Below are positions 22,993 through 43,732 of a stretch of 64,000 nucleotides of DNA, piece by piece. The translations under genes were made by a program, and so were the position numbers. How positions within the stretch are numbered: the stretch's first letter is position 1; every line of letters starts with the position of its first letter. The notes under the pieces are model-generated. The model saw only the letters and a list, made by a program, of their open reading frames with translations, did no database searches and was not told the DNA's origin. This DNA is from Hypomyces perniciosus (lineage: Eukaryota > Ascomycota > Sordariomycetes > Hypocreales > Hypocreaceae): positions 2,852,001 through 2,916,000 of the forward strand of contig SPDT01000002.1 in assembly GCA_008477525.1 (NCBI GenBank). The letters are read 5' to 3'.

Positions 22993-25119
22993 CTAAACAA
23001 TCTCCACATCTTTGCATAATGCTTCATTCCATGCCTCCCCATACATGATTCCGTGGACATAACATGGCCCCATTATGTTCTCCCCTCCATCTGGCTTCGG
23101 CCGAACAACAAGGGGCATCTTCCCTCCACGAAAGAGCATAATTTGGTCCCCAATCGCACTCTGCCTGGGGACAGCGGCAAGATATCCCTTCTCAGTCCTT
23201 GCTAGGCGACGATACAAGGTGGTTTCAGTGGCAGTAGAATATACTCTGTCTCCCAGGTTCTTGAACCCGGATAATATGCCTGTGGTCGCGATCATCCATT
23301 TGTAAAAAGCACCATTCATGCCAAGTCCTTTGAGGAAAGTGAACATCTTGGGCCCACGGAACGTCTTTCGCCACTTCCTATATCCTTCCAAGGCTGATTC
23401 TTCCCCATTCGGTACATTCCCGGCACACATTGTGATGGCAAAAGCGGTTTCGGGGTCTTCGCCAGTTGGATACTTCCGGTACTTGCTTGACAAAGCAAGC
23501 CTCTCCCACTGGATCAGCGTGTCAAAGTATGTGCCTAATCCGGTGAAAATTGTGTGGATAACACTTGTGACCTGGTTCACTGATGATGTCATGCCGTCGA
23601 TGTCTACATGATCCATCTTTGGAACGGTCAGAACGTCCCCGAGTTGTATGATTCGGTCGAATTCGTAGCCTGATAGGACGAGCGAGTCAGTGCCCGGCTT
23701 GAGTCGAGGCTCCCAATGATCAATAGTCGAGGCGCGAAATGGTCGCACCGTTGCGTCCTCCCCGTTTTCCCGATCAGCATCCCGAACCAAGCCGACAGGG
23801 GCCGGCTGTTCTAGCAAAGTCCAATCTGGAACCCAGGATGGCGAGCTTAATGTCGGCGTCACCATGCGATCGGTAAGAAGGATGTCCAGGTTCCGTGTAT
23901 TCGACATGACTGCCAGCGCTGTCCGCTTGTAGCATTCTTCCACCGAAATGGTGTAATCTGGAGCAATTCCCAACGCTTCAGATTCTTCCCTGGTGAGGAG
24001 ACCAAGGATTGAGTATACTTTGTCCCGAGGATCAGTCGCTTGTAAAGGCAAGACCTGCCAAAGAAGCGAAAGAAGGTCAACGGATTGCGAATATGCATCC
24101 GGATATTGCAACCTCAATCGTGTCAACATCATCATGATCAGTCCGCCGCGTACGATCTGTTCAGGCCTGCCTTCTAGCGCCGAATCTCCGAGAAAGACCG
24201 CCAGTGTGAAGCCGAAGTGAAAGATGTCCCAGTCAAGAGCCTTTGTACCACACACGATTATGGCTTCTCGCGCAAGACAAACTTCCTGGAGGACCCAGCA
24301 GCGCGTGAACCAAGGACGACTGATCAGCCGTAAAAAGGCTGCTGACTCTTTGCTTGTCGCGTCAGGCACGTCATCTGGTTCGGCCTCACCATCAGCGTCA
24401 CCCTTTTCCCCAGAGGCCTGCGAGTTGGAGTCGGAGACTTCGTTGGCTTCAAGTTTCCGGCTCTTGGCTTCAGCAGCCTGGCGGCGCTTTACCTCGGCCA
24501 GCTTCTCTTTCAAGAACTGGTCCTTATTCGGTCCCCACAGGACATCAACTCGGTTGACGATGCCAGCATCTTCGGTGAGCAGCGCCAGTCTATTCCTAAC
24601 CATGCGCTCGCATAGAGGGAAGATCAGGTCGCTATCTTCATCCTCCTCGCCCAGCCATATAAGCACCGTAACCGCGGCCCGATAAATGTACCGCATGAGA
24701 TTTACCTGATGCGCTCGCTCGGCGATATCATTCTGGTTGATGCAGATGGCGTCAATCCACAAGACCCTTTCCTCCTCCGCCGGACGAAGATGACGGAGAG
24801 CAGACTCCAGGTTTGCCGTTACTGAAAAGGGTTGACCACCGCAGAAAATAGAACGCCTGTTGGAGGCATCCCCCCAGCAGTATGAGAGTGCCTCGTAGAC
24901 GGGCCCATCTGATTCATCGAGTTTGGTGACTGAGAGGCGGACATGGATAGGAGCCTGTGGATCGGTGCTTGGGGCCAGTGTCAGAAGACGAATATAATCA
25001 CCGTCTAACCGATCTTGGATGTTTTCGTATTCATAGTCGGACATTTCTTTTGGCCCGAAAAGCTGGTGCTCGAGTACGGAGTAATTCTCCGTGGTTGGTG
25101 ATGATGGGAGCTGAGGCAA
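22993..25119 (-). CDS. Heterokaryon-incompatibility (HET) domain protein 1
   Basis: This is a single exon of 708 residues. The HET domain is clear: YEALSYCWGD at residues about 75-84, LWIDAICINQND at about 120-131, then the VxLMRYIYRxAxxVLIWLGEEDEDSD segment. A Ser/Glu/Asp-rich insert and a long C-terminal region with WFTRCWVLQE, DPRDKVYSILGL and SWVPDWT follow, all typical of fungal HET proteins. The C-terminus ends with a GDQIMLFRGGKMPLVVRP-type segment. HET proteins drive cell death after fusion with unlike individuals or act in allorecognition; the partner and trigger are not evident. A TACTCCGTA word (reading as coding strand) falls in codons for Tyr-Ser-Val near residue 13. The gene lies 465 bp downstream of Argonaute on the same strand. 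Confidence 0.92.
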   Translation of the reverse strand: MPQLPSSPTTENYSVLEHQLFGPKEMSDYEYENIQDRLDGDYIRLLTLAPSTDPQAPIHVRLSVTKLDESDGPVYEALSYCWGDASNRRSIFCGGQPFSVTANLESALRHLRPAEEERVLWIDAICINQNDIAERAHQVNLMRYIYRAAVTVLIWLGEEDEDSDLIFPLCERMVRNRLALLTEDAGIVNRVDVLWGPNKDQFLKEKLAEVKRRQAAEAKSRKLEANEVSDSNSQASGEKGDADGEAEPDDVPDATSKESAAFLRLISRPWFTRCWVLQEVCLAREAIIVCGTKALDWDIFHFGFTLAVFLGDSALEGRPEQIVRGGLIMMMLTRLRLQYPDAYSQSVDLLSLLWQVLPLQATDPRDKVYSILGLLTREESEALGIAPDYTISVEECYKRTALAVMSNTRNLDILLTDRMVTPTLSSPSWVPDWTLLEQPAPVGLVRDADRENGEDATVRPFRASTIDHWEPRLKPGTDSLVLSGYEFDRIIQLGDVLTVPKMDHVDIDGMTSSVNQVTSVIHTIFTGLGTYFDTLIQWERLALSSKYRKYPTGEDPETAFAITMCAGNVPNGEESALEGYRKWRKTFRGPKMFTFLKGLGMNGAFYKWMIATTGILSGFKNLGDRVYSTATETTLYRRLARTEKGYLAAVPRQSAIGDQIMLFRGGKMPLVVRPKPDGGENIMGPCYVHGIMYGEAWNEALCKDVEIV

Positions 25120-25584
25120 TTTAAATACTACAGACAGCTTCAGGCTTCAGCTCGCCATGAGGCTGAGTCAATAGAATCGATAGTCCACAGTGTAGGGCGC
25201 GTGGACCATTGCCGTAAGGCGCTTTCATTTAATCTTGCATGCAAACCGGCGATTTCTTAAAACTGACTGGAACGTTATCCACTTGATGTGAGACATCATC
25301 GGCCCGAATTCTTTATTCTCAATCCTACTAGGAGTCGGTATTTCTCTCCCCCCGATATCCTTCACTACCCCTGTTTGGCATCATGGTCTTCATTTCGCAG
25401 GGCCGTTCTCCCTTATCATCTCTCCATTCAGTCGGGAGCATATTGGTTCCGTGGCCATCCCCAACAGCAATACTCGGTTTGAGAGGCTTTAGGCAAGTTG
25501 ACTGCTGGTCGGCCATCAGCTAAGGCGTGGACGCCTATAGCTTCACGCGACGCGACGGGCACTTTATTGGAGAGCCAGGCTCTT
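25120..25584. other. Spacer between Argonaute and HET gene 1
   Basis: This is the 465-bp upstream region of HET gene 1 and 3' region of the Argonaute gene, both on the minus strand. I see no gene. Confidence 0.5.
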
Positions 25585-28500
25585 TCAGATGTAAAACATG
25601 CTATCCCTCACCCTCTCATGAATCCGCACATCATGCTGAGTAGCTCCGGCTCCGGGACCACCCGCCACACTGCCCGCCACGGATGGTGCAGCCGAGTTGG
25701 TTGGTGTCTCAAACAGGCTGCTGAGATAGCATCGCGCACGTTCGCATACAATATCAGCGTAGTACGCTGGTGTGCAAATGCTCACGGCTTTAGTAGCACG
25801 GCCAAACACATAGCACATGCTCTGCGTCAAGTCCTGCAGCTCGTCCGCCACGTTTTTCCCAGGGACTTTCACGTATCGCGGACGGAAGATCTCATCCAGT
25901 ACGACGTAGTAGTGCGCTGGGCGCGCGGTTCCTTGCAGGGCAGTATGAGCCTGGAGAAAGAAATCCCAGTTTCGTGCCTCGGTGACGCTGCGGTCAACCA
26001 CAGTGCCGGACCTCGTGTTACCGGACCGGTCTGCATCGGCCTCTTTGGTCGGATAGAAGCGAGTATGATGACGCTTCCCAACTATGACGACGGTCAGACG
26101 TGGTAATCCCTTCTTTTGATCAACCGCCGGATAGACCTCCTTGCAGGCTGCGCGAAGCAGCGGTACCTCCTCATCTAGGACCTTTTGGTACTGACCCTCC
26201 GAGACGCCATCACGGTAGATAAGGATGTTTTCCGGCAGAGCAGTGTGCTTGCCCTTGTCGCGCCACAGACGTAGACGCGACTTCAACATATCCTTCAGAT
26301 CGGAGACCATCTCCTGGCGGCGCTCAGACTGGATACTGAGAACGGCGGGCCACTGACCAAGCGAACGGTCAACGCTTGCGACCATACTAGCGATGCTGGG
26401 CGCCAGCCTGGCAGATCCAGGAGACGGATGAGTTACGTCAATGCCAACGATCATTGTCTTATCCTCCGAAATGAAGCCCAAGCGTGAGGGCTCGACAAGC
26501 TGATTGCTTCCACCAAGCTTCAGGTTGAACTTGAGAGCTTCGTTGCGGAAATACTGGTCCTGACCCTTAGCGAGCTTGCTGCCGACGCTGCAAACGGTGT
26601 GGATGCCGTATTTCACGTCGCCCAACTGCTTGATGCGGTTGTATAGGGGAATGGGAGCCGCGGGAAGGATGACAAAGAGTAGTTGCAGAGATGCAGCCGC
26701 ACGCTGGATCAAAGGTTCAAGCTGAGGATCGTCCGTACTATTTAGTTGCACTCGCTGCAGGGGTTGAAGCGGAGGGCTGGCGTCAATGCCCGTGTCATTC
26801 AGCACATGTTGAAATTTGCCCATCAGGTCTTTCAAGGATTCTGATGTGAATCTATGGGCGCCGGGGTACGCGTCGGGCATATCGATATACAGACAAGACC
26901 ATTTCCTCATGGTCCCGCTGTGGTTGAACTTCAGGCTTGGAGAGTCGCGCGGGACCATGTTCCAACTGCCACCTATCGTGTTTGCTTGTTTGTTCTGCTT
27001 ATAGACGACCTTCGGGCTGACGAGAACGCGGCCTTGAACGGTGATGAGGTTCGGCACAACGGTGATTCCGAATTGGCTCTGTAAGATATTAGAAGTCCGC
27101 TCATGGGTGATGTATTTCAAGAGGGCAAACGAGGCCTACCAATCGAGGATTTGTGTTTGGGGACAAGCCTGCAGCCTGCAGTCCTTTCGTAACAATGGAT
27201 GTTGCGTTTTCAACCGGCCTTCGAACAGCAAACCGAATCATGTTTTGGGTTTGCTTCGGATCCAGGCTAGTTTTGGCAGGCTGGCCGGATAGGACGTAGC
27301 ACACCTGGGGAGGCAGATAAGTTGGGGTCTCTCGCCTACCGACATTGATGACAGGCAGATTGGGGTTGGCAATGTGGATGCCATAGGCTGCGCGAGTGTT
27401 AGCAGCCTCTCACGTGGTCAAGGATGCAAGAAACCACCTACTTTCAACGAAGAAATTGTAAACAGAGATATACCGCCCTGAGCTAGCCGCAGACTGACTT
27501 GGGGGTTTGTCCCCGCCGCCTTTCCCCTTGCCACCCTTTTTCTTCTTTCCAGCAGGGGAAGAAGGAGATTGATCTTTCTGAGCCGGTGATGTTTCGAGCC
27601 AGAACTCCACGTCTTTCGGCCCAGATCCAAATTGCTTGATTCTCGGAGGATGCTCCAGACCATGGCCATCGTTCTTGTTGGCAAGACCGAAAATAGTCTT
27701 GATTCTCGGTATAACTTGGCCAGTTTTATTCACCTTCTCTTTGAGGTGAGTTGTCTTGATTCGGAGCCCCTTGAAGAATTTCTCCAACTTGAAGAAAGCC
27801 CGGGGAGACTCGAACCGGAGAATGAAGTGGTCAAGAGGGCCCTCTTGGTAAAATGCACCGTGACTCACGTTGACATTGACTAGAACTCGAGCCGTCGCCA
27901 CTCGTACACTGGCGAAGAAGCCGCGTATGGCCGTAAGGCAGCTACCGAGGTCCCAAGTATCCGCCTGCTGGTCCAGAGAGAAAGTCTTGGACGCTCCGAT
28001 GGTGGCGAGATTCCCAGACGACTTGGCATGGTGATTGAGGAAGATGTTGAAGGCTTGGATCATGGGTAGCTGTTCAGAGTACTGAGCAGACGGACTGGTC
28101 GACGTGAGGTAGGCTAGCAATTCAGAAACCGCTAGTGTATTGGCGAAGAAGAGCTTCACGTGGTACTCGGTGGCACCGGAGCGTGGCGTGTCTTCATCCT
28201 CGGCTCGATATTGTATGTCGACGGTTTTATCGTCAAATCTCTGTCGACAGATAAGAGTAGACTTGAAGTCGGTGGCGATGTCGTTCTTGAGTGATGCCAA
28301 CTCCGATGTCTCCACCAATAGACGGATGATCTGAGTCAACTTTCTCCCCGTAGCGGCTGGGGTAACGGAAACATCGTATCGGTACAAGACCAGCTTTGGC
28401 GACACGTTGAAAGCAAAGTAGTTTGCCCAGAGGACGACATTCGTTCCCTTGGTGCCGTAGCTAGGACGGTTGGGGAATGCATCTTGCAAGCTGAGCTTAC

Positions 28501-28848
28501 TGAGATCGATCGCTTTGTTCTTCGCTTGGAGAGCATCCTCGATGTTGGTCACGGACTGATCGGGGTTTGGGATGCCACTGGGGAGGCTGTGAAGAACAGG
28601 CGCTTGTGAGTATGATACACCACAGAGATAGAGCTCGAGACTGATATAGGTACTGACGAGAAGACAGCGACCGGTCCTCCGCCTCCTCCACCTCCTCCGC
28701 CTCGTCCACCACGACTGAAGCTGCCCCGGAATGGGGCGCCGCCGCCGCCACGGGCTGCTCCACCTCCGCCGCGAGATCCGCCCCGGGCATCTCCGCGCCC
28801 TCCGCGTCCGCCGCGTCCTCGATAGTCTTGTCCACCGCGATGGGACAT
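25585..28848 (-). CDS. Argonaute protein (QDE-2-like), four exons
   Basis: Exons 28658-28848, 27442-28586, 27140-27387 and 25585-27078 give about 1025 residues. The order is an N-terminal Arg-Gly-Gly region (MSHRGGQDYRGRGGRGG...), ArgoN, a PAZ region spanning the second intron (VYNFFVE / YGIHIANPNLPVINVG), then MID and PIWI. The PIWI slicer tetrad is present: D742 in GIDVTHPSP, E784 in RQEMVSDL, D818 in YRDGVSEGQ and D970 in AYYADIVC. Asp in the last position (instead of His) is, as I recall, also seen in QDE-2. I infer a catalytically competent small-RNA-guided endonuclease. The introns of 61 and 54 bp have canonical ends; the first (28587-28657) needs a GTCAGT donor and is the weakest boundary. 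The gene forms a silencing pair with the RdRP-helicase gene 1.9 kb away. Confidence 0.94.
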
Positions 28849-29843
28849 GGCGCTTGTGTTATTTGGTTAGGGGAAAAAGCAGTTGGAGAGAGTGTCGTCA
28901 AGACATGGAGTGCAGTTGACTTGGGAAGTCTGTAAAGGTAGTCGACGGTCTGCTTATTTATAGGCAGTGATTTCATGTAGCACAAACACGCATTGCTTAT
29001 GAGGGGTCAACGCATTGTTTGGGCCCCCCGCATATGTACCAGGAAAACGCCTTGATTGAAACTGAGGGTCGCGAATCCAAGGAAACGTGGGAAAAGATAA
29101 GTGGCTTGGATCTACTATTTGCCTTGACGCCCTTGGACGGACCAAAAACACCGTCTCAAGGTCTTGTCAAGGAGAATGACGGAGAATGACTTCAGACTTC
29201 AAGATTGGCAAATTGCGCCTTGATGAACGCGTTAAGCACGTGAGTATACACGTGACGCGTCAGGTTATGTTCTCTTCCTCCACAACCTACTTCGTGGATA
29301 GCTCTTCTTTTCTCAATGGTACACTCTTCAATAATCGATCATCATCTCCAGTATTACTTCGTACTATTTTCTGCCTGCTAGGCTTAACAGGAGGATTTTG
29401 GGAATTGGAGCCTAACCCTTGTATGGTAAGGCAGCAAGCGTGGCGTTCGGGCCGACGGGCCGATCCCATCTCCGACGTCCTTAATTTCTCGACCCGCCTC
29501 TATCCTCCCTACCCTGGAAATTTTATGAAGCAGTATGAAGTATGGTAGCATGCCGTAGTGACGAACATTTATGCACGATATCATACGAGGTACTTCGTAC
29601 AAACATGGCATTCTCCTCACCCTCTGTTCATAAATTAAATCAAGGTTATAACCCATTGGCTGGATAAATTTCAGTATCAGATCAGCTGTCGATGGTCCAA
29701 AAAACCCCACCTGATGATAGCAAATCCATATTCAGCCCCAGAGCATTTAGTTCAGAGAAATCTGTCGGGTTGCTCTTGAAGGCCCGAGAAAACAGTGTCA
29801 TGATGTCAAGATCCCTACATCGTCACGACTACTTATTCCCATG
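28849..29843. other. Upstream region of Argonaute
   Basis: No gene is supported. Two TACTTCGTA words occur at 29355 and 29591. The stretch lies upstream of Argonaute and downstream of the NTPase gene, both minus strand. Confidence 0.5.
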
Positions 29844-30476
29844 TCAAATCTCCGAAAACACACTGTCCATCCACTTCGACCATACAAATGCAGCCCTCTT
29901 TTCCACATTCAACATGGAGCATGGAATGACGTGGTACTTCAACCCTACCTCCTCCAACATCTGGCAGAATTCATGATGATAGTCGATCCAATCTTGCATA
30001 TCCCTCGGCATCAGCCTCACTCCATCGTCCACGAGCCAGTTTGCTCCGGCTTCGCAGACAAATATCAGCGACTTTGACATTCTATCCCACGCTTCCTGCC
30101 AATGACTGGTTGCCATCATGGATTCGACTGCTTCGGGTCCGACGTGACGACTTGCATACACGATTGGGTCGAGTCCGGAGCGATCCGAAATCATCCATCC
30201 ACTCTCTTTGAGCGCCGCACGCTCGCTGTGGGATTGCGCTTCGAGTATGAGGGACTGCAATTGCGAACAGCGACCCCGGTCCGAGGTGATGTCGTTCGCC
30301 GTGAAGCCGTGAACTTTTAGAACAGATCGGGCGACCTCCTTGACGATCTTGGGCGGTGGAATATTGAAATAGTTGCCGAAAGAGCTCTCCAAAGCATGGA
30401 CAAGTGTCGTCTTGCCTGTGCACTGGGCACCGACAATATAGATATTCTTCATGTTGGGTGTGTAGCGAGCTGTCAT
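29844..30476 (-). CDS. Small P-loop NTPase (AAA_28-like)
   Basis: This is a single exon of 210 residues. A Walker A motif GAQCTGKTT lies at residues 16-24 after a short beta strand (NIYIVG). A likely Walker B/acidic strand (GWMISDRSGLDPIVYA) follows at about residue 92, and the helical C-terminal part carries DMQDWIDYHHEF. This layout fits the AAA_28 group of nucleotide-binding proteins, related to NadR/Ttd14-type P-loop kinases, common as short fungal hypotheticals. The substrate is unknown. It is transcribed away from the RdRP-helicase gene, with only 301 bp between the two starts. The ATG at 30476 or Met9 at 30452 could both serve; Met9 would still leave Walker A intact. Confidence 0.8.
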   Translation of the reverse strand: MTARYTPNMKNIYIVGAQCTGKTTLVHALESSFGNYFNIPPPKIVKEVARSVLKVHGFTANDITSDRGRCSQLQSLILEAQSHSERAALKESGWMISDRSGLDPIVYASRHVGPEAVESMMATSHWQEAWDRMSKSLIFVCEAGANWLVDDGVRLMPRDMQDWIDYHHEFCQMLEEVGLKYHVIPCSMLNVEKRAAFVWSKWMDSVFSEI

Positions 30477-30777
30477 GGTGCCCTTGGACCATCTGCACTA
30501 CCAAGATCGATGGCATAAATCTTCAGGAGAATTCCAGACGGCAGAGGACTATTTGAATATTTAGGCACAACAGAAATAATGAGTAACAAGCTTTCTGGTT
30601 GGCCCCTCTCATGCGGGAGGCCGTCGCATCGAAAGTGCGGAGTAGCTGCAGTGTGACCATATATGATACCATCATTCCCAACACCAACCTGTGTGGAACA
30701 CCGAACATCCTTACCAGTTTCCTCTCCTTTGTTGTGAGAATTCCCATATCCAAGCAAGAAATTATCATATCGTCAGA
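30477..30777. promoter_or_regulatory. Shared 301-bp divergent promoter region
   Basis: This region lies between the start codons of the NTPase (minus) and RdRP-helicase (plus) genes. It must hold both promoters and both leaders, so co-regulation is plausible (inference). I cannot pick a TATA box confidently. Confidence 0.45.
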
Positions 30778-33700
30778 ATGCCTAAAGCTTCGGCAAATCC
30801 CAAATCCTTCGAGCACGTTCTCCGTGAGCGAATCTGCTTGGATGATGACGAATGGGACTTCGACGTGCCAAGGCTGCCTTCCTCGGCGTCTGCAAACAGT
30901 GCTGGCCTCATCAAGATGGTCAGTCTCTCGACCAACGACTCCCACCACCGGCTTGTTCTCCGATACGTACCTGTCGAGATGAATCGTGCCATCAGTGACG
31001 CTCCACTAGATCACTATCTCTCGCTCTCGTTCTCCGAGTTCCGTTCCATTAGGAATCCCTTACCTTCGAATGTACCGTGTGGCAGCCAAGGCACACAGCC
31101 TACAACCCCACGCGAATGTTCCGAGTATGCCATCAAGTTCCTTCGGGCAGGCATTCGCATTCATGGAGTACATTACTACTTTTACGGTCACAGCAATAGC
31201 CAGCTCAAATCGAGGACATGCTTTCTCTACGCCGCCTCCAAGGAACAGATCGCAGACAAGGTCGAGTCACTGGGGGACTTTACCAAGATGAAGACGGTGG
31301 CCAAGAAGGCAAAGCGCATCGGATTGCTTTTTTCAGTCGCCCATGCAGCTCTCAAGGTCGATCCGAAGAGAGTCGAAGATATTCCAGACATTGAGACAGG
31401 AGACTACAATTTCACGGATGGTTGCGGGCTAGTTGCACCTAGCTTTGCCCAGGATCTGGCCAGACGTGCTGGAATCGCATTTCGGAACATGAGATATACA
31501 CCATCAGTCTTTCAGATCAGGTATCGAGGGTACAAGGGAGTTCTGACGTTGGATCCAACCATGAAGAAGGGGGGCACATGGCTCAAAATGAGAAAGTCGA
31601 TGAAGAAATTTAATGGGGGAAACGACTTGTCTTTCTCGGTCGTCGAGTATTCCAAGGTATATATCCCTTCTGCTAGATTTACCAGCCTTGGTGTTAGGAT
31701 GCTGAGAGTCAGGACAGCCATACACATTTGGTCATCTCAACGATGAAATTATCGTCCTTCTTGATGCTCTGGGCATTGATAGGCAGGTTCTCATTCGCAA
31801 GCAACAAGAGCACTTCAACTTCCTTTCCGACGCACCTCGGGATCCCCGCTCTGCATTCCGATTCTTGTGCCATCTTAATATGCCGGAATTGGCGGAGCGT
31901 GTCATCATAGATTCGCTCGACGCGGTGCGACCGCAAATCAACAGGCTCGTAAATACCGAGTATGACAAAATGCTGAACAAGCGTGAAGAGCAAAAATGCC
32001 GTATCCTGATCCCTCAGTCAAGGATTCTATTTGGCGTTTGTGACACTTGGGGCGTTCTTAAGGAAGGCCAATGTGCCGTCAAGATCACGATGGATGGAGA
32101 CGGGCAGCCGTATGCCCTGAAAGGCATGAAGGTGTTGGTGACGAGAAACCCATGCCTGCATTCTGGCGATCTTCAAAAGCTTGATGTTGTGGAACGACCA
32201 GAACTTGCTCATCTGGTGGATTGCATAGTATTCCCGACCATAGGGCGACGTCCAGCCGCAGACATGATGTCCGGGGGGGATCTGGATGGTGATACTTGTG
32301 AGTGAAGATCGATCTCCCCTTTTGAGGCCTGTCGCGGTCTTAGAGAGTTGGATTGGGGCCCCGTGAGTCCATAATTAATGCATTTGGTAGTCTTCGTCTC
32401 CTGGGATCCAGAGATTATCCCCTCAACCATAGCTCAGGCAGCACATTACCCAGGGGTCCGCGAACCACTAAGATTTGCCCCTATCACAGATGATGATCGG
32501 TTGGTGTATTTCGCCAAGTACACAAACGCATCGCTGGGCCGCGTCAAGAATCTCTATCTCAAATGGGCAAGGGCAAACGGTGCCATGAGCCCTGAATGCC
32601 AGGAACTGAACCGCCTCTTCTCCCAGTGTGTAGATGGGAATCGAATCAAGGACAGCCAACTTGCCAAATTCGATAAGCCCCCAACTCCTAGCGGCGATGC
32701 CATCACGTTTGTCCTTGATGAGCTTCATGAGATAGCGAAGAACACCATTGCCACACAGAAAAGTTTGAGACCAACTAACATGGAGGGCTACACTTTTGAT
32801 GGTGTGGAGCTCCTTCTATGCAGGGACAATATTGCGATGTCGGAGATGGAATTGATCAAACTAACCGTTCAGTGGTGCAGAAAGACGGGGACTTCATTTC
32901 TTCACTTGATGCATGCGTTCGACTTCAATGCTCTAACACCCGAGGACAAATCGTGGGTTTTGGCTCAAATCCCTACGTCAATAAATGCCCCCGGCCTTGT
33001 TTTCAATGCTCTATGTTCTTCAAATTTGGTCACAGAATCTGAGCTCAACCACTTTCATCTCAATTATCCCGGGATGCATTGGAAACGCGTATACGATTCT
33101 GATCAAGACCGTCTTGCCACATTCTTGGATGCCGCCTCCAAGAGTCTCGAACTGTTTCATAAGACACTTATTGTCTTTCGACCGAATGATCGTTTGACGT
33201 TGGCAATGTACGTGCCACAAAAGATTACACCAGATGACGATTTCCTGGTCGACAACAAGGTCAGACTTTTCGCCTTTCCGCACTCACAAGGAAGGGAAAC
33301 TCAAAGCCGCCTCTCACTACCGACAAAGAAGGGATACCAACTGTTTTGTGATGGGAACACATTTCAACTCTTTGAGGGCAAGCGAGGCAATACATGGGTG
33401 TATATCGGCCGTGGAGCGTCCAACGACAGCAGCTATAGAAACGTACCACGGACTCAAGACCGCAGAAAGGCACGGCAAGAAACCTTGGACACGAAAGTCA
33501 ATTACGACTTCATGGCAAGTGTTGCGTTGAACAAATTTGGCAAAGGGTTGCAAACCCATATGGGAAGACTTCACAGACAGGGCATTTCTGCTGCGGTGAG
33601 TTTAAATTTTGGCTCGATTCGCTCCATTTGCAGAGCTAACGGGAGCCAAAGGAGATTTACATTATCAGCAATCGCGACATCCGTTCCATTCGTAACCTTG

Positions 33701-36278
33701 ATCTCTGGGAGAACTATATTGGCACCGATCAGACACTCCCGCTATTCGAACAGACACCAAAACTGTACGACGTTCCAAAGCTTCACAATGTTGACTGGGG
33801 CTCAGAAGATCGCCTTATCGTCGCGGTTGCTAAACAAGGGAACCTTTCAGCTCTCCAAGATGTATTAAACTCTGAGTATTTGGAACAACTCTTCATCTGG
33901 CTCCTAGAGAGGGGACAGAGGGAGCTTTTGTTTCGATGCTATGATCACCTTATTGCAAGTATCCGATCTAACCAGGTGATGGCTTCAATGAACGCTATCC
34001 TACAACTGATGACAGGGTTCTCGCACAAAATACCCTATGTCTCTGTCGCATTCGCCAACTTTGGCGTACCAGATGGCCTTGGCACTATTCTTCAGAACAG
34101 CAGTACTTTGCTGCTAAGAAACATCATTCTCTCCGAGAGTGAGTACGGCGAGCTTGTCGTGGCCCCCTTTCAAGCCATCTTGGAGAACGTGACGCAGCTC
34201 TCCCTCGCGTCCTTTGCTGATCTTGTCGAGATTATTTCTCTCACTGTCAATTCTTCTGATGTAGCTCTAGACCTACTACTGGAATGTCTCAATCAACAGA
34301 GTGCAAGGCTCCTCACTGGTCGACCAGCCATTACTCAGCACTTCGTACATAACATGATAGCAATAGCCATGGAACATATCGCAGAAGTGCAAGACGCAAA
34401 GACAATAGAAGCCGAGCTATTGAACATCCAACTGTATGATAACAAGAGTACTAATATTATGGGAACACAGATTGAAGTCTCCTTCAGGATTGATGCTACC
34501 AGCGGCACACCGAAGGCCAATACTCACGTACGATTCGTCACTGCTAGCCCGCCTACGAGCTGTCTTCTTGGAAGAAACTATTCAATGGATGGACTTGTTG
34601 TTGGAAGCCAACCGGGAGTTGCAAAAATTCTTTGCTTTCACCCTCTTCCATCTTACTACAAAGACTGCTCCTGGAGGCTGCAGCGCTGTGGACTCTTTGT
34701 GACGACAAAGACCATGTTAGATGCGATTAAGAACATCGCCACGCTTGAAAATGACTGTTGTGGAATCATCGACCAGATTCTTGGAATTCGGTCTTCATCT
34801 GGGGCGACGGACTCCAGATCCAGTCCTACAAAGTCTACTTCCAAACCTGCCGTGGATCATTTGAATGAGAGCCAGATTACTGCAGTTGAAGCTGCGCAGA
34901 GGAACAAGCTCACTTGTATTTGGGGTCCTCCGGGAACTGGAAAGACACAGACAATTGTTGAAATAATTCGAAGACTACAGTTAGACCCCGAGTCTAGGAT
35001 TCTCGTTACAGCACCGACCCATAACGCTGTGGACAATGTCATGAGGAGATACCTTGGACAGATCAGTAAAGAAGGCGTGCCAAAGCCCTCCGACCCAACA
35101 ACACCTTTGCGAATATCTACTGAGGTAAGAGCCCCAGTTTCTGTGGTGTTCGCCCATTCCACTCTTATTTACTTCATGGAAAAATACATCAAGCTGAATA
35201 CTTTATTGTTCTCCAGGTAGGAAAGGTAGCCGAAGATCTACGGAAATACACATGCGACGCCTTGGCCGGGCAAGAAGTCTATTCTAGTCACAGCGCCATG
35301 CGCCAGGCCAAGCAGCGAGTAAGCAAGGCTCGCATCATCTTCACAACATGCATCGGTGCAGGTCTGGGCCTTCTCCGGGAAGAAGCATTTGACACCGTGA
35401 TTGTCGACGAGGCATCTCAACAGACGGAGCCCGCGTCGCTCGTGCCCCTTGCCAAGGGGTGCAATAAAGCTATCTTGGTCGGAGACCACGTCCAACTGAG
35501 GCCCACGGTACAGAATACAACTATGGCACTTGGATTCGATGTGTCACTGTTTGAAAGGCTGTACACACGACCAGGAAGCACGCCTGGCATGGCTAAAGTC
35601 ATGTTGGATGTACAGTATCGGATGCATCCTACTATCTCTGAGTTTATTTCGCGAGAATTCTATGAGGGGAGACTGTTGTCTGGGTTACAGGATCAGGATC
35701 GGCCTCTCCCGGCTTCGTCGTTCCCCTGGCCTACATCAAGACTATCCCCAGCGTCAGTTGTATCGGTATCCAAACAACACTCAGCTGAGAAGCAAAAGGC
35801 TTCGCGGATGGTCTTTGTTGAATGCTCTGGGAGAGAGGATTTGGGAAACAAGTCCAAATCAAACAAAACCCAGGCAGACATGTGCTTTGCGATCTGCAAG
35901 CTTCTGCGCACAACCGTCACAACAGATGACAGCTCTTGTCTTCCATCGCTTGTAGTATTAACGCCGTACTCTCACCAAGCCCAACTTCTCACAAGGCTCC
36001 TTAGGGGGCTCACCAACGTGGAAGTCTCCAGCATTGACGGTTTCCAAGGCAGAGAAGCGGACATTGTTATTTTTGTCACCGTACGCTGTAATGAGAGTCG
36101 AGAAATTGGGTTTCTTAAGGACCTCCGACGGATGAATGTCGCGCTCACTAGAGCGAGGTTGGGGTTGATTGTTGTGGGCAATGAGATGACACTGACTGGC
36201 GGAAGGGAGGAAGAGGAGAGTACTGGGATGTGGCGGAGGTTTCTAGGTTTGCTTTCACGAGTCGACATCTCAGAATGA
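30778..36278 (+). CDS. RdRP fused to an SF1 (Upf1/Sen1-type) helicase
   Basis: Exons 30778-31656, 31718-32297, 32391-33595, 33652-35124 and 35217-36278 join in phase to 1732 residues. Residues about 130-520 are a cellular RNA-dependent RNA polymerase: FTDGCGLVAPSFAQDLARR, VFQIRYRGYKGVLTLDP and the metal-binding D481-L-D-G-D485 in SGGDLDGDTFFVSWDP. After a long linker, the C-terminal third is a complete superfamily 1 helicase: LNESQITAV, Walker A GPPGTGKT (1313-1320), APTHNAVDNVM, D1443-E-A-S, GDHVQLRPT, YRMHPTI, SIDGFQGREADIV and VALTRAR. I infer that it makes double-stranded RNA and unwinds or remodels its template or product. Introns are 56-93 bp. The RdRP lacks the long N-terminal extension of QDE-1/SAD-1-type enzymes; only about 130 residues precede the core. 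Confidence 0.88.
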
Positions 36279-40295: not shown

Positions 40296-42599
40296 TTAAG
40301 CCAATACAAAACTCTCTTCAACACCTGCTCCCGGTTCTAACGCCTCGCCATTCATAATCCCATCGCAATATGCCTCGCCCAAATATTCATATACTTTGTT
40401 GCCCATTCCCAGGTCCTCAGTTTCTCTTATCACATGTGGTACCGTTCCACCATGAAACACTACTATGGCATCGCCTGGTGTCATCAGCGCTGGGCCTATG
40501 CCGACATAGCCTGTCTCTGTGCGATAAAGCTTTCGATCTCTATTCTTGAGTAGGTTCGAAGTGAAGGCGTCCATGTCCGACCCAAATACGACCTCAGGAT
40601 CGAGTCCTACTCGTTCAACTGCCTCACGAGTGGGTTTGAGATTGACTTTGCCAAAGCGGTGGCGGAACTTGATATAGAATTTCGCGAATGAGATCCTCGC
40701 GGAGGCGACGCAGAGTCCAACCATGTCCGTAACAAAATCCAGAAGGGCGTCACATACGATCTTACCAGCTGCCACTGGGTCCAGGGCACAGAGGCGAAGA
40801 CTTTCCATCTCCGAAGCAGGCGTCCAGTACCAAGGGGTAATTCCTACAGTGCGATAAATGCGTGTAATGTGATATGCAGCAATGGCCTCGTCAGAGTTGA
40901 GGAGTCGTTGTCCCAAATGAGAAATGGTATCGTGGAGAGCTCTGAGTCGTTCGACGCCAGGAGAAACACCGAGCTTTTCTGTAAAGTACTTGTAGGACAG
41001 ACCCGAGTCGCAAAGTCGAAGACAAATTTGAGCGTACATCTCCTCATTTTGAGCAGAAGGACCCCGACCATTGACCGTAGCCCGTGCCTCTCGTACAATG
41101 TCTGACACTTCATCAAAAAACGCCTTTGCCCGGCGGTAGTCAATCTGTTCCATTATTTGTGGTTTGGGGTCTGCACGGTGCGTGCGATTCCCAACGCGTA
41201 CGACCTTATCAATCAAGACTCCTCGAATAATCAACTGTGAGGACCTCTCATCAAACCGGAAATGAGCCCCTTCCTTTGGCCCTCCAGCAGAAAAGATAGG
41301 TTCTGTTAAGTCTGAGTATCCAACCGGAATTGTGAGATCCATCGCCCAGTCCGGGACCCAAGACGGCAATTTCCTGGTGTCTGAAGGAAGGCCTCCGGTG
41401 GTCTGTTTGGGAAACTGAACAAACAGCAAGGCGTCAATATTTTCCTCCAGCAGCAAGGGAGTGACCTCAGTATATACTTGAATCACTTCCTTTTTGTAAC
41501 GGATATGAATTCGTTGTCGCAATCGGTCATCATCCGCAGTAAGCCCCAATAAGCCAAATATTCGATCTTCATCTAGACTAGCCCCGATTTTCTTACTATC
41601 GTGGTTGATATTGTACTTGAGCACTAGGTCGTATAGACCCCGTCTTTTGCCATTTTGATGGATGGCCTTGCGCTCCTGGAAAATACGGATCAAACCTGCT
41701 GTCTTATCGAAAATAGCATTGCGTCGACGGAGCTCATGCTGTCCCATAGCCCCGACCAGTTGTCGCACCCAGTGTGTGTTGTACAGATTGTAGAAAAGCG
41801 CCCCCGACCGGAAGCAGTCAAAGCAGAGTGACTGATAACCACAGACAAAGATGACAACTGGAGCTAGACAGGCTTCTTGGATAACCCACAAGCGATTGAA
41901 CCAGCGCCGGTCGAGCACATCGGCGAATCCATCCAAGGGAAAGGTGTCTCCAAAACGTCGAATCATATGTAGAAGATCATCTCGATCCTCGCGCTCCTCT
42001 CCACTCACTTCGATAGATGGGTCCATCACGGCGTCAAAAACATGCATGAAATGACCGAGTCGTGGCCCTATAACTCGACTCAGGACACCTTCATGACATA
42101 TCTTGTGAACATATCGAAAATATTGGTTTGAGCCGTGGGTCGGAAGACCAAGCCAAACAACAGTGCGATTACATCTCGTATAAATGTCTCGCATGAGCTG
42201 GACTTGGTGGCTCTTTTCAGAATTGTTCTCTTGATTGATGCTGATCTGATCAATAAAAAGAGGCTGGTGATGTGCGGTGCTGTCAGGGACAAGATGAAAG
42301 AGTGCTAGCTCCAATGAACGATATATATACAGTCCGCGAGGGCCATCTTTCGTTTCCACAATGATTTGTCGATTTGGCGCAGTTGTCTTAGATGGAGCAT
42401 TCCAGGCGTAGGAGAGAGCATCGTAAGACGTGTTCAAGTCAACATTGACCTCGATAATCTCAACGCGCAGCGTGCCGTAAGCGCAAGGTAGGAGAGACGG
42501 CCTCGGTGGAAGCAGCCGAACTACACGGAAGACCCTTTGCGAAGGGTCAATAGGAGTATATTGGAAAGGCGGTAGATAGTTGAGGTTGAAGAGCGACAT
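40296..42599 (-). CDS. Heterokaryon-incompatibility (HET) domain protein 2
   Basis: This is a single exon of 767 residues from the ATG at 42599; the frame is open a little further upstream but without ATG. The HET domain shows YDALSYAWN at residues about 59-67 and PLFIDQISINQEN at about 113-125, then VQLMRDIYxRCxRTVVWLGLP. Downstream segments WFNRLWVIQEACLA, DRIFGLLGL and PSWVPDWAMDL are shared with HET protein 1, as is a C-terminal GDAIVVFHGGTVPHVIR segment. The two proteins are distant relatives, not recent copies. It is the last intact gene before the A+T-rich block. Confidence 0.92.
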   Translation of the reverse strand: MSLFNLNYLPPFQYTPIDPSQRVFRVVRLLPPRPSLLPCAYGTLRVEIIEVNVDLNTSYDALSYAWNAPSKTTAPNRQIIVETKDGPRGLYIYRSLELALFHLVPDSTAHHQPLFIDQISINQENNSEKSHQVQLMRDIYTRCNRTVVWLGLPTHGSNQYFRYVHKICHEGVLSRVIGPRLGHFMHVFDAVMDPSIEVSGEEREDRDDLLHMIRRFGDTFPLDGFADVLDRRWFNRLWVIQEACLAPVVIFVCGYQSLCFDCFRSGALFYNLYNTHWVRQLVGAMGQHELRRRNAIFDKTAGLIRIFQERKAIHQNGKRRGLYDLVLKYNINHDSKKIGASLDEDRIFGLLGLTADDDRLRQRIHIRYKKEVIQVYTEVTPLLLEENIDALLFVQFPKQTTGGLPSDTRKLPSWVPDWAMDLTIPVGYSDLTEPIFSAGGPKEGAHFRFDERSSQLIIRGVLIDKVVRVGNRTHRADPKPQIMEQIDYRRAKAFFDEVSDIVREARATVNGRGPSAQNEEMYAQICLRLCDSGLSYKYFTEKLGVSPGVERLRALHDTISHLGQRLLNSDEAIAAYHITRIYRTVGITPWYWTPASEMESLRLCALDPVAAGKIVCDALLDFVTDMVGLCVASARISFAKFYIKFRHRFGKVNLKPTREAVERVGLDPEVVFGSDMDAFTSNLLKNRDRKLYRTETGYVGIGPALMTPGDAIVVFHGGTVPHVIRETEDLGMGNKVYEYLGEAYCDGIMNGEALEPGAGVEESFVLA

Positions 42600-43732
42600 G
42601 TTGACGACTCGCAAAGATAAAAGAGGGTGCCAACAATTATGCCAGAAAGTCACGCAGAAATATCAAACTACGAAGTACGAAGTACGTTGGAAGGAATCCA
42701 ATCGCATCTTTAATATCCAAAGATATGCAAAGCCATTAGCTCTTTGTGGGCTAGGATGATGCACCTCAGCCGCAATATTGGCATTGCCTTCCAATCACAC
42801 CATTCTATGTTATGTACTGATCAATGCGCATAGCATAGTCAATAAATTTCCAAGGATAAAACCACGCGTCATACCCTTCACTTCCCACCCCGGACAGCAT
42901 ATCTGCCTAACAGAATGCCTAACAGATTGGTAAGGGACATTTGCCTTCCGAAAACTGAACGGACGAAAAGGCAACCACACACTTCCTATCATAGTAATGC
43001 TCCTTAACAAACTATCTCAAAATTCTCCTCTGAACAATTGAGGGATTTATCGCTGTAATTGACAACGGTTTTCGGAAAGAAAGTACCGGCGCATCTCTGT
43101 TATAGCTGGTTCTACAGTTGAGTTGGATAAGAAGGAACAAAATGCAGGGCCCTTTTGAGGATATCAAAAAGAAGGTATTCGTATTAGTTGTGGTTGCTGA
43201 ATCAAAAGGTTCCGTCGCAGTTAAGGCAGATGAGAGAAGGAAATCGTCGAGTCTAAAATGTTGTGAGCGAGGTTATGGATCTGTAATGTGTAACGGAACT
43301 TCACGCGAACAAAGGAGGTTTTATCTGTCTGACAGAAGTGGAAACTGCTATTCTTGGGTCTTACGACCAAGGGAGTAGTTTATAGATCGGGACCTAAAGC
43401 CGCATATGAGGATGAAATGTAACAGAATTTAGTGGCTTGGGGTAAATTAAGGCCATAGCCACTAGTCAGCTAGTTTTAACGTCCGGGACGCTGCGCCCAG
43501 CGACCACGACTTCCGAGAGGAGATTGCTTGGCGCTTATATCATTGAGCCCGAAAGATATAAGAAGAACATATTTTATATCACATCCTCGTTATCCCTAGC
43601 GCTTGTTGTGGTTCTCGACTTTGTCACACTTCTTCGGGATGAAGAGTCGATTCCCATGTATACGGGAGTAAGTGATATCAGAGAACCGACAATCTGAGGT
43701 GGCTAAGAAGGAGTTGATCAACGACCTCTATG
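42600..43732. other. Boundary region before the A+T-rich block
   Basis: No gene is supported. Two overlapping TACGAAGTA words occur at 42669 and 42676, upstream of HET gene 2. The segment at about 43455-43700 has balanced composition, TATA-like stretches and CT-rich sequence resembling LTR or leader sequence, but no second copy is visible in this window, so I leave it unassigned. Confidence 0.4.

Follow-up and report, generated by a model that had tools for sequence, protein, structure and literature searches.

A divergent gene pair encoding an RNA-dependent RNA polymerase-helicase and a predicted kinase-like NTPase, with an accessory Argonaute gene beside it, in Hypomyces perniciosus

A three-gene locus in the Hypomyces perniciosus genome

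We analysed a window of 64,000 nucleotides (C5:2852001-2916000) from the genome of Hypomyces perniciosus, which comprises 44.0 Mb in 23 contigs. Three adjoining genes occupy positions 25585-36278 of this window and encode an Argonaute, a small P-loop nucleoside triphosphatase (NTPase) and a fusion of an RNA-dependent RNA polymerase (RdRP) with a helicase (Table 1). Gene models and domain searches agree on this side-by-side arrangement, which the initial annotation had picked out as a candidate RNA-silencing locus. The NTPase and the RdRP-helicase are oriented divergently with start codons 301 bp apart, and 995 bp separate the stop of the NTPase from the start of the Argonaute. Splice signals (introns GT-AG) and the names of helicase motifs were judged by eye.

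Table 1. Positions of the features discussed (window coordinates, except for the last row)
Feature	Position	Strand	Remark
Argonaute, 1025 amino acids, 4 exons	25585..28848 (28848-28658, 28586-27442, 27387-27140, 27078-25585)	minus	extra QDE-2-like paralog
AAA_28 P-loop NTPase, 210 amino acids, single exon	29844..30476	minus	predicted model similar to deoxynucleoside kinases and to the kinase domain of NadR
Stretch of 301 bp separating the divergent start codons of NTPase and RdRP-helicase	30477..30777	.	candidate shared promoter
RdRP-helicase fusion, 1732 amino acids, 5 exons	30778-31656, 31718-32297, 32391-33595, 33652-35124, 35217-36278	plus	Fgrdrp5 type
HET frame	22996-25146		flank of the three genes
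HET frame	40299-42662		flank of the three genes
AT-rich block	43750-64000 (start approximate)		runs to the window end
Second Argonaute-helicase neighbourhood	C8:2849278-2856733 and from C8:2856976 (L042:4976-7962)	+ and -	elsewhere in the genome

A recurring gene pair

Co-location in other fungi was read from lists of protein homologs, taking equal size of the listed contigs as a proxy for a shared contig and using locus tags in addition. The lists held the best 120 of 408 proteins for the RdRP-helicase and the best 120 of 474 and of 710 for the two other genes; only named rows were used (111 RdRP-helicase, 102 Argonaute and 67 NTPase), the dropped remainder being mostly unnamed metagenome rows. 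Among the matches listed, NTPase and RdRP-helicase lie on contigs of equal size in 17 of the 23 species shared by the two lists, and no equal contig sizes were seen between different species. The 17 species include Trichoderma reesei and two leotiomycetes, and in seven the contigs are shorter than 140 kb. Consecutive locus tags place the two genes side by side in the leotiomycete Cudoniella acicularis, in Fusarium gaditjirri and F. nygamai and, when tags of different strains are compared, in F. verticillioides.

Of the conserved adjacency of all three genes considered in the initial annotation, co-location was borne out for NTPase and RdRP-helicase and probably does not extend to the Argonaute. 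Listed Argonautes of the window type share contig size with the RdRP-helicase in only 1 of 15 species and, among the matches listed, with the NTPase in 1 of 11. The sole species is in both cases Hypoxylon trugodes, with all three genes on a contig of 3.29 Mb, a length that therefore says little about closeness. The window-type Argonaute listed for T. novae-zelandiae, T. chlorosporum and Cladobotryum lies in each case on a different large contig. Since the list holds window-type relatives only, an Argonaute of some other type next to the pair would have escaped notice.

The NTPase, to which little weight had been given at the outset, is the conserved neighbour. It belongs to Pfam family AAA_28 (96.9 bits), and its predicted model shows a kinase-domain fold with Walker A and DG-x-R motifs that resembles the ribosylnicotinamide kinase domain of NadR and deoxynucleoside kinases. 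Against the NadR family TIGR01526 it reaches 30.5 bits, where the cut-off, which applies to the whole two-domain protein, is 341. A candidate second AAA_28 gene on contig C16 was rejected, the match being weak (26.8 bits) and containing a stop; a frame next to it shows by eye the LSGGQ signature of the ABC type. We found no report of the NTPase/RdRP-helicase pairing in the part of the open-access literature that was searched, which does not establish its absence from print.

Additional paralogs of the silencing genes

The RdRP-helicase carries an RdRP domain (PF05183, DLDGD at 481) and, in its C-terminal part, a superfamily 1 (SF1) helicase (AAA_11/AAA_12, Walker A at 1313) within one spliced model. 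Among the best 120 of 408 homologs, 99 are at least 1600 amino acids long and 96 of these contain both motifs; because single-protein homologs are mostly of this length and composition, the single 1732-amino-acid model with five exons is supported. The whole spliced protein aligns with Trichoderma proteins at about 70% identity. RdRP matches were found at four loci in the genome. One of them, C5:624876, is QDE-1-like (603 bits to QDE-1). Comparison with plant RDR2 gave 272 and 328 bits for the two loci on C3 and 226 bits for the window RdRP. The latter reaches 68 bits with QDE-1, which rules it out as the ordinary QDE-1 ortholog. Among solved structures its helicase part matches UPF1 with 170 bits and ZNFX1 with 85, Hrr1 and SAD-3 lying outside this comparison, and a helicase of the ZNFX1 type was rejected on these scores.

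Judged by sequence, the RdRP-helicase is not new but corresponds to Fgrdrp5 (FGSG_09076) of Fusarium graminearum, and the type is widespread in Pezizomycotina. According to the passages available on this gene, mutants lacking it discharge ascospores at 47.6% of the wild-type level, and the gene is placed in a pathway of exonic small interfering RNAs (siRNAs). Excerpts of other studies report that the mycoviruses FgV2 and FgV3 strongly up-regulate FGSG_09076 and that the argonaute FGSG_08752 is also up with both (PMC4071046), and that hypovirus siRNAs are predicted to target the Fgrdrp5 mRNA, while hairpin-RNA silencing may not depend critically on the gene (PMC4870495). The F. culmorum match to FGSG_09076 appears, in the portion available, as a "hypothetical protein" among the top 20 up-regulated genes in a study of azole adaptation, with a log2 value of 5.66 (PMC6028722). 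The available portions of three papers, dealing with Cryphonectria (PMC4182546), Colletotrichum (PMC4890784) and Trichoderma (PMC10986496), contain the word "helicase" once, once and not at all, and describe no RdRP-helicase.

The domain search returned a complete Argonaute set (ArgoN, L1, PAZ, L2 and Piwi). The residues D742, E784, D818 and D970 are present at what we take, by motif, to be the four catalytic DEDD/H positions. The protein therefore looks slicer-competent, as had been suggested. The genome contains four Piwi genes. In a comparison of three of the four, with query stretches of somewhat unequal length and C4:2745752 outside it, C4:1185432 matched QDE-2 best (432 bits), followed by the window Argonaute (360 bits) and the gene on C8 (340 bits), so that the window gene was ruled out as the QDE-2 ortholog. 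C4:2745752 shares 29% identity with the window Argonaute over the compared part. Both silencing genes of the window are accordingly extra paralogs, as the initial annotation had proposed, and because the QDE-1-like gene and the one nearest to QDE-2 among the three Argonautes compared lie elsewhere they form an additional set beside the usual genes.

The Argonaute on C8 has surroundings of its own. About 240 bp away, tail to tail, lie frames with an SF1 helicase match and AAA domains, the helicase run holding one TGA that may be an intron or damage. Within a few kb of this gene, overlapping minus-strand frames (L043:342-2943) resemble by eye a reverse transcriptase of the long interspersed nuclear element type and an RNase H-like domain.

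Trees for counting class changes were built from 63 of the 120 listed Argonautes and 57 of the 120 RdRP-helicases, each with the window protein, and a further Argonaute tree combined 40 of the 120 with the four from this genome. With class labels from general taxonomy, and looked up for Cladobotryum (Hypocreaceae), Cudoniella (Leotiomycetes) and Microdochium (Xylariales), the chosen rows of the RdRP-helicase, drawn from six classes, require 6 class changes (minimum 5), while those of the Argonaute family require 8 (minimum 3). The Argonaute tree is thus more discordant with taxonomy, which mixed paralogs could also cause. By tree path, rows of Cladobotryum and Trichoderma come closest to the window RdRP-helicase. 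The window Argonaute belongs to a group of eight (96% local support) whose other members are from Trichoderma, Cladobotryum, Escovopsis and, in one row, Cordyceps and, since it groups with these, has probably long been resident in the lineage. In the tree with all four Argonautes of this genome, the places of the other three are unsure because of their long branches. Elsewhere in the Argonaute tree of 63 listed rows, short branches connect Argonautes of Ilyonectria, Microdochium (Xylariales) and Fusarium solani (P0160, P0169 and P0216), which represent two orders; two rows of Fusarium fall among Eurotiomycetes and Dothideomycetes. These odd placements may reflect horizontal movement, old paralogy or mislabelled assemblies.

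Flanking regions

The three genes lie between HET frames, and a GH20 gene and an ankyrin gene are also found in their flanks. The AT-rich block begins at about 43.75 kb, 7.5 kb past the RdRP-helicase. Its GC content varies from 0.08 to 0.37 in 250-bp steps near the edge and is about 0.2 farther in. Repeat-induced point mutation (RIP)-like composition is strong in the block, with a composite RIP index of 0.91, 0.92 and 1.15 in three pieces, whereas the three-gene locus gives -0.69 and shows no such signature. The HET neighbours described in the initial annotation are borne out, and the RIP-marked block lies near the 8 kb given there for a putative retrotransposon block.

A working model and its alternatives

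On balance we lean slightly towards reading the locus as an old divergent pair, made up of an Fgrdrp5-type RdRP-helicase and an NTPase resembling the NadR kinase, next to which this hypocrealean lineage carries an accessory Argonaute of the QDE-2-like kind. From the domains we infer how such a locus might act. The UPF1-like helicase would load on or remodel aberrant single-stranded RNA, which the RdRP would convert into double-stranded RNA. Dicer-type enzymes encoded elsewhere could then cut this product; paired RNase III domains, as in Dicer, were found on C22 and C8, together with three more single matches. An Argonaute, perhaps the neighbouring one, would slice matching RNA. The small NTPase would most likely phosphorylate a nucleoside, a nucleotide or an RNA 5' end for the same RdRP step.

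Several points weigh against this reading. Equal-size contigs are not the same as adjacency, which only the four tag pairs show, and the listed contig size is that of the longest contig in a 90% cluster. In 6 of the 23 shared species the contig sizes of NTPase and RdRP-helicase are not equal. For F. verticillioides the size is not given and the tags are consecutive, and for F. oxysporum, F. xylarioides, T. atroviride and T. gracile the strain names or tag prefixes differ or tags are missing; Podospora didyma has no evident reason. The divergence of the two proteins runs in parallel (r 0.96, 153 pairs), which is what the species tree alone would yield. Conserved divergent pairs can also be held together by a common promoter while their products act in separate pathways. 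Finally, the available part of one study reports no role of the RNA interference machinery in growth, abiotic stress or pathogenesis under the conditions tested (PMC4515635).

The chances seem to us about equal that the position of the Argonaute results from a chance rearrangement, the Argonaute working apart and only the NTPase/RdRP-helicase pair being meaningful. The rarity of listed window-type Argonautes on the contigs of either partner and the three genomes with the listed gene on another large contig agree with this, as do, in the F. graminearum passages, the ago tags FGSG_08752 and FGSG_00348, numerically far from FGSG_09076. Random placement of four Argonautes and four RdRPs in 44 Mb, however, yields only 0.0046 expected pairs this close (a post hoc figure), and the C8 Argonaute likewise adjoins an SF1 helicase frame. 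The joint induction of one ago gene and rdr5 by both mycoviruses, as reported in part of that literature, and the shared contig of H. trugodes, for what it says, also speak for a link. That all three genes act as a unit, an accessory defence island against mobile RNA or DNA as the initial annotation suggested, is a weak reading that we regard as distinctly unlikely. The adjacency is real, the HET neighbours and the RIP-marked block fit, the Argonaute tree is discordant as in accessory genes, and the mycovirus induction in F. graminearum makes a defence role for the locus plausible by analogy. Yet the Argonaute seldom accompanies the RdRP-helicase, which itself behaves as a core gene in its tree. 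The recurring RdRP-helicase/kinase-like pair is the better finding.

Within that pair, the NTPase might be a housekeeping kinase for nucleosides or for salvage of nicotinamide adenine dinucleotide, its only tie to the RdRP-helicase being a common bidirectional promoter; we see this as possible, if somewhat improbable. It would suit the predicted fold and the metabolic role of NadR, but the NTPase is the only clear AAA_28 match in the genome, in two classes its relatives are again found on the contig of the RdRP-helicase, and its sequence likeness to NadR is weak. A bolder extension of our preferred reading, offered tentatively and in our view unlikely to hold in full, is that Rdrp5-type silencing has an unrecognised dedicated enzyme resembling NadR and deoxynucleoside kinases, encoded next to and divergently from the RdRP-helicase in many Pezizomycotina and phosphorylating a substrate or product of the RdRP (a nucleotide or RNA 5' end), which an accessory Argonaute has joined here to make a compact silencing locus.

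Parts of fungal RNA silencing are usually found through homology to Argonaute, Dicer or RdRP. A gene recurring beside one RdRP in two fungal classes gives an uncommon lead to a missing partner; the kinase-like gene may be such an overlooked part. Should the Argonaute prove linked in sister species as well, this natural combination could be used to study how particular RdRPs supply particular Argonautes.

Comparison with known systems

The window Argonaute has the same domain set as QDE-2 of Neurospora and matches it across the MID-Piwi part, but a second gene of the same genome is nearer to QDE-2. The window RdRP-helicase resembles Fgrdrp5 with 52% identity over 99% of its length. As far as the passages on Fgrdrp5 go, that protein too is an RdRP carrying C-terminal DEXD-like helicase and AAA_12 domains and stands apart from QDE-1, nearest to plant RDRs. 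The locus differs in that, by locus tag numbers, there is no Argonaute neighbour in F. graminearum, and an NTPase neighbour is not mentioned in those passages. NadR is a metabolic enzyme. The window NTPase differs from it in its lack of the adenylyltransferase domain, in a score far under the NadR cut-off and in the residues SDRS aligned opposite the DTD stretch of NadR. The RNA-directed RNA polymerase complex (RDRC) of fission yeast consists of Rdp1, the helicase Hrr1 and Cid12, and like the window locus it has an RdRP acting with an SF1 helicase. In the window, RdRP and helicase are joined in a single polypeptide whose helicase is nearer UPF1 (Hrr1 itself standing outside that comparison), and the gene adjoins a kinase-like NTPase where RDRC has a nucleotidyltransferase.

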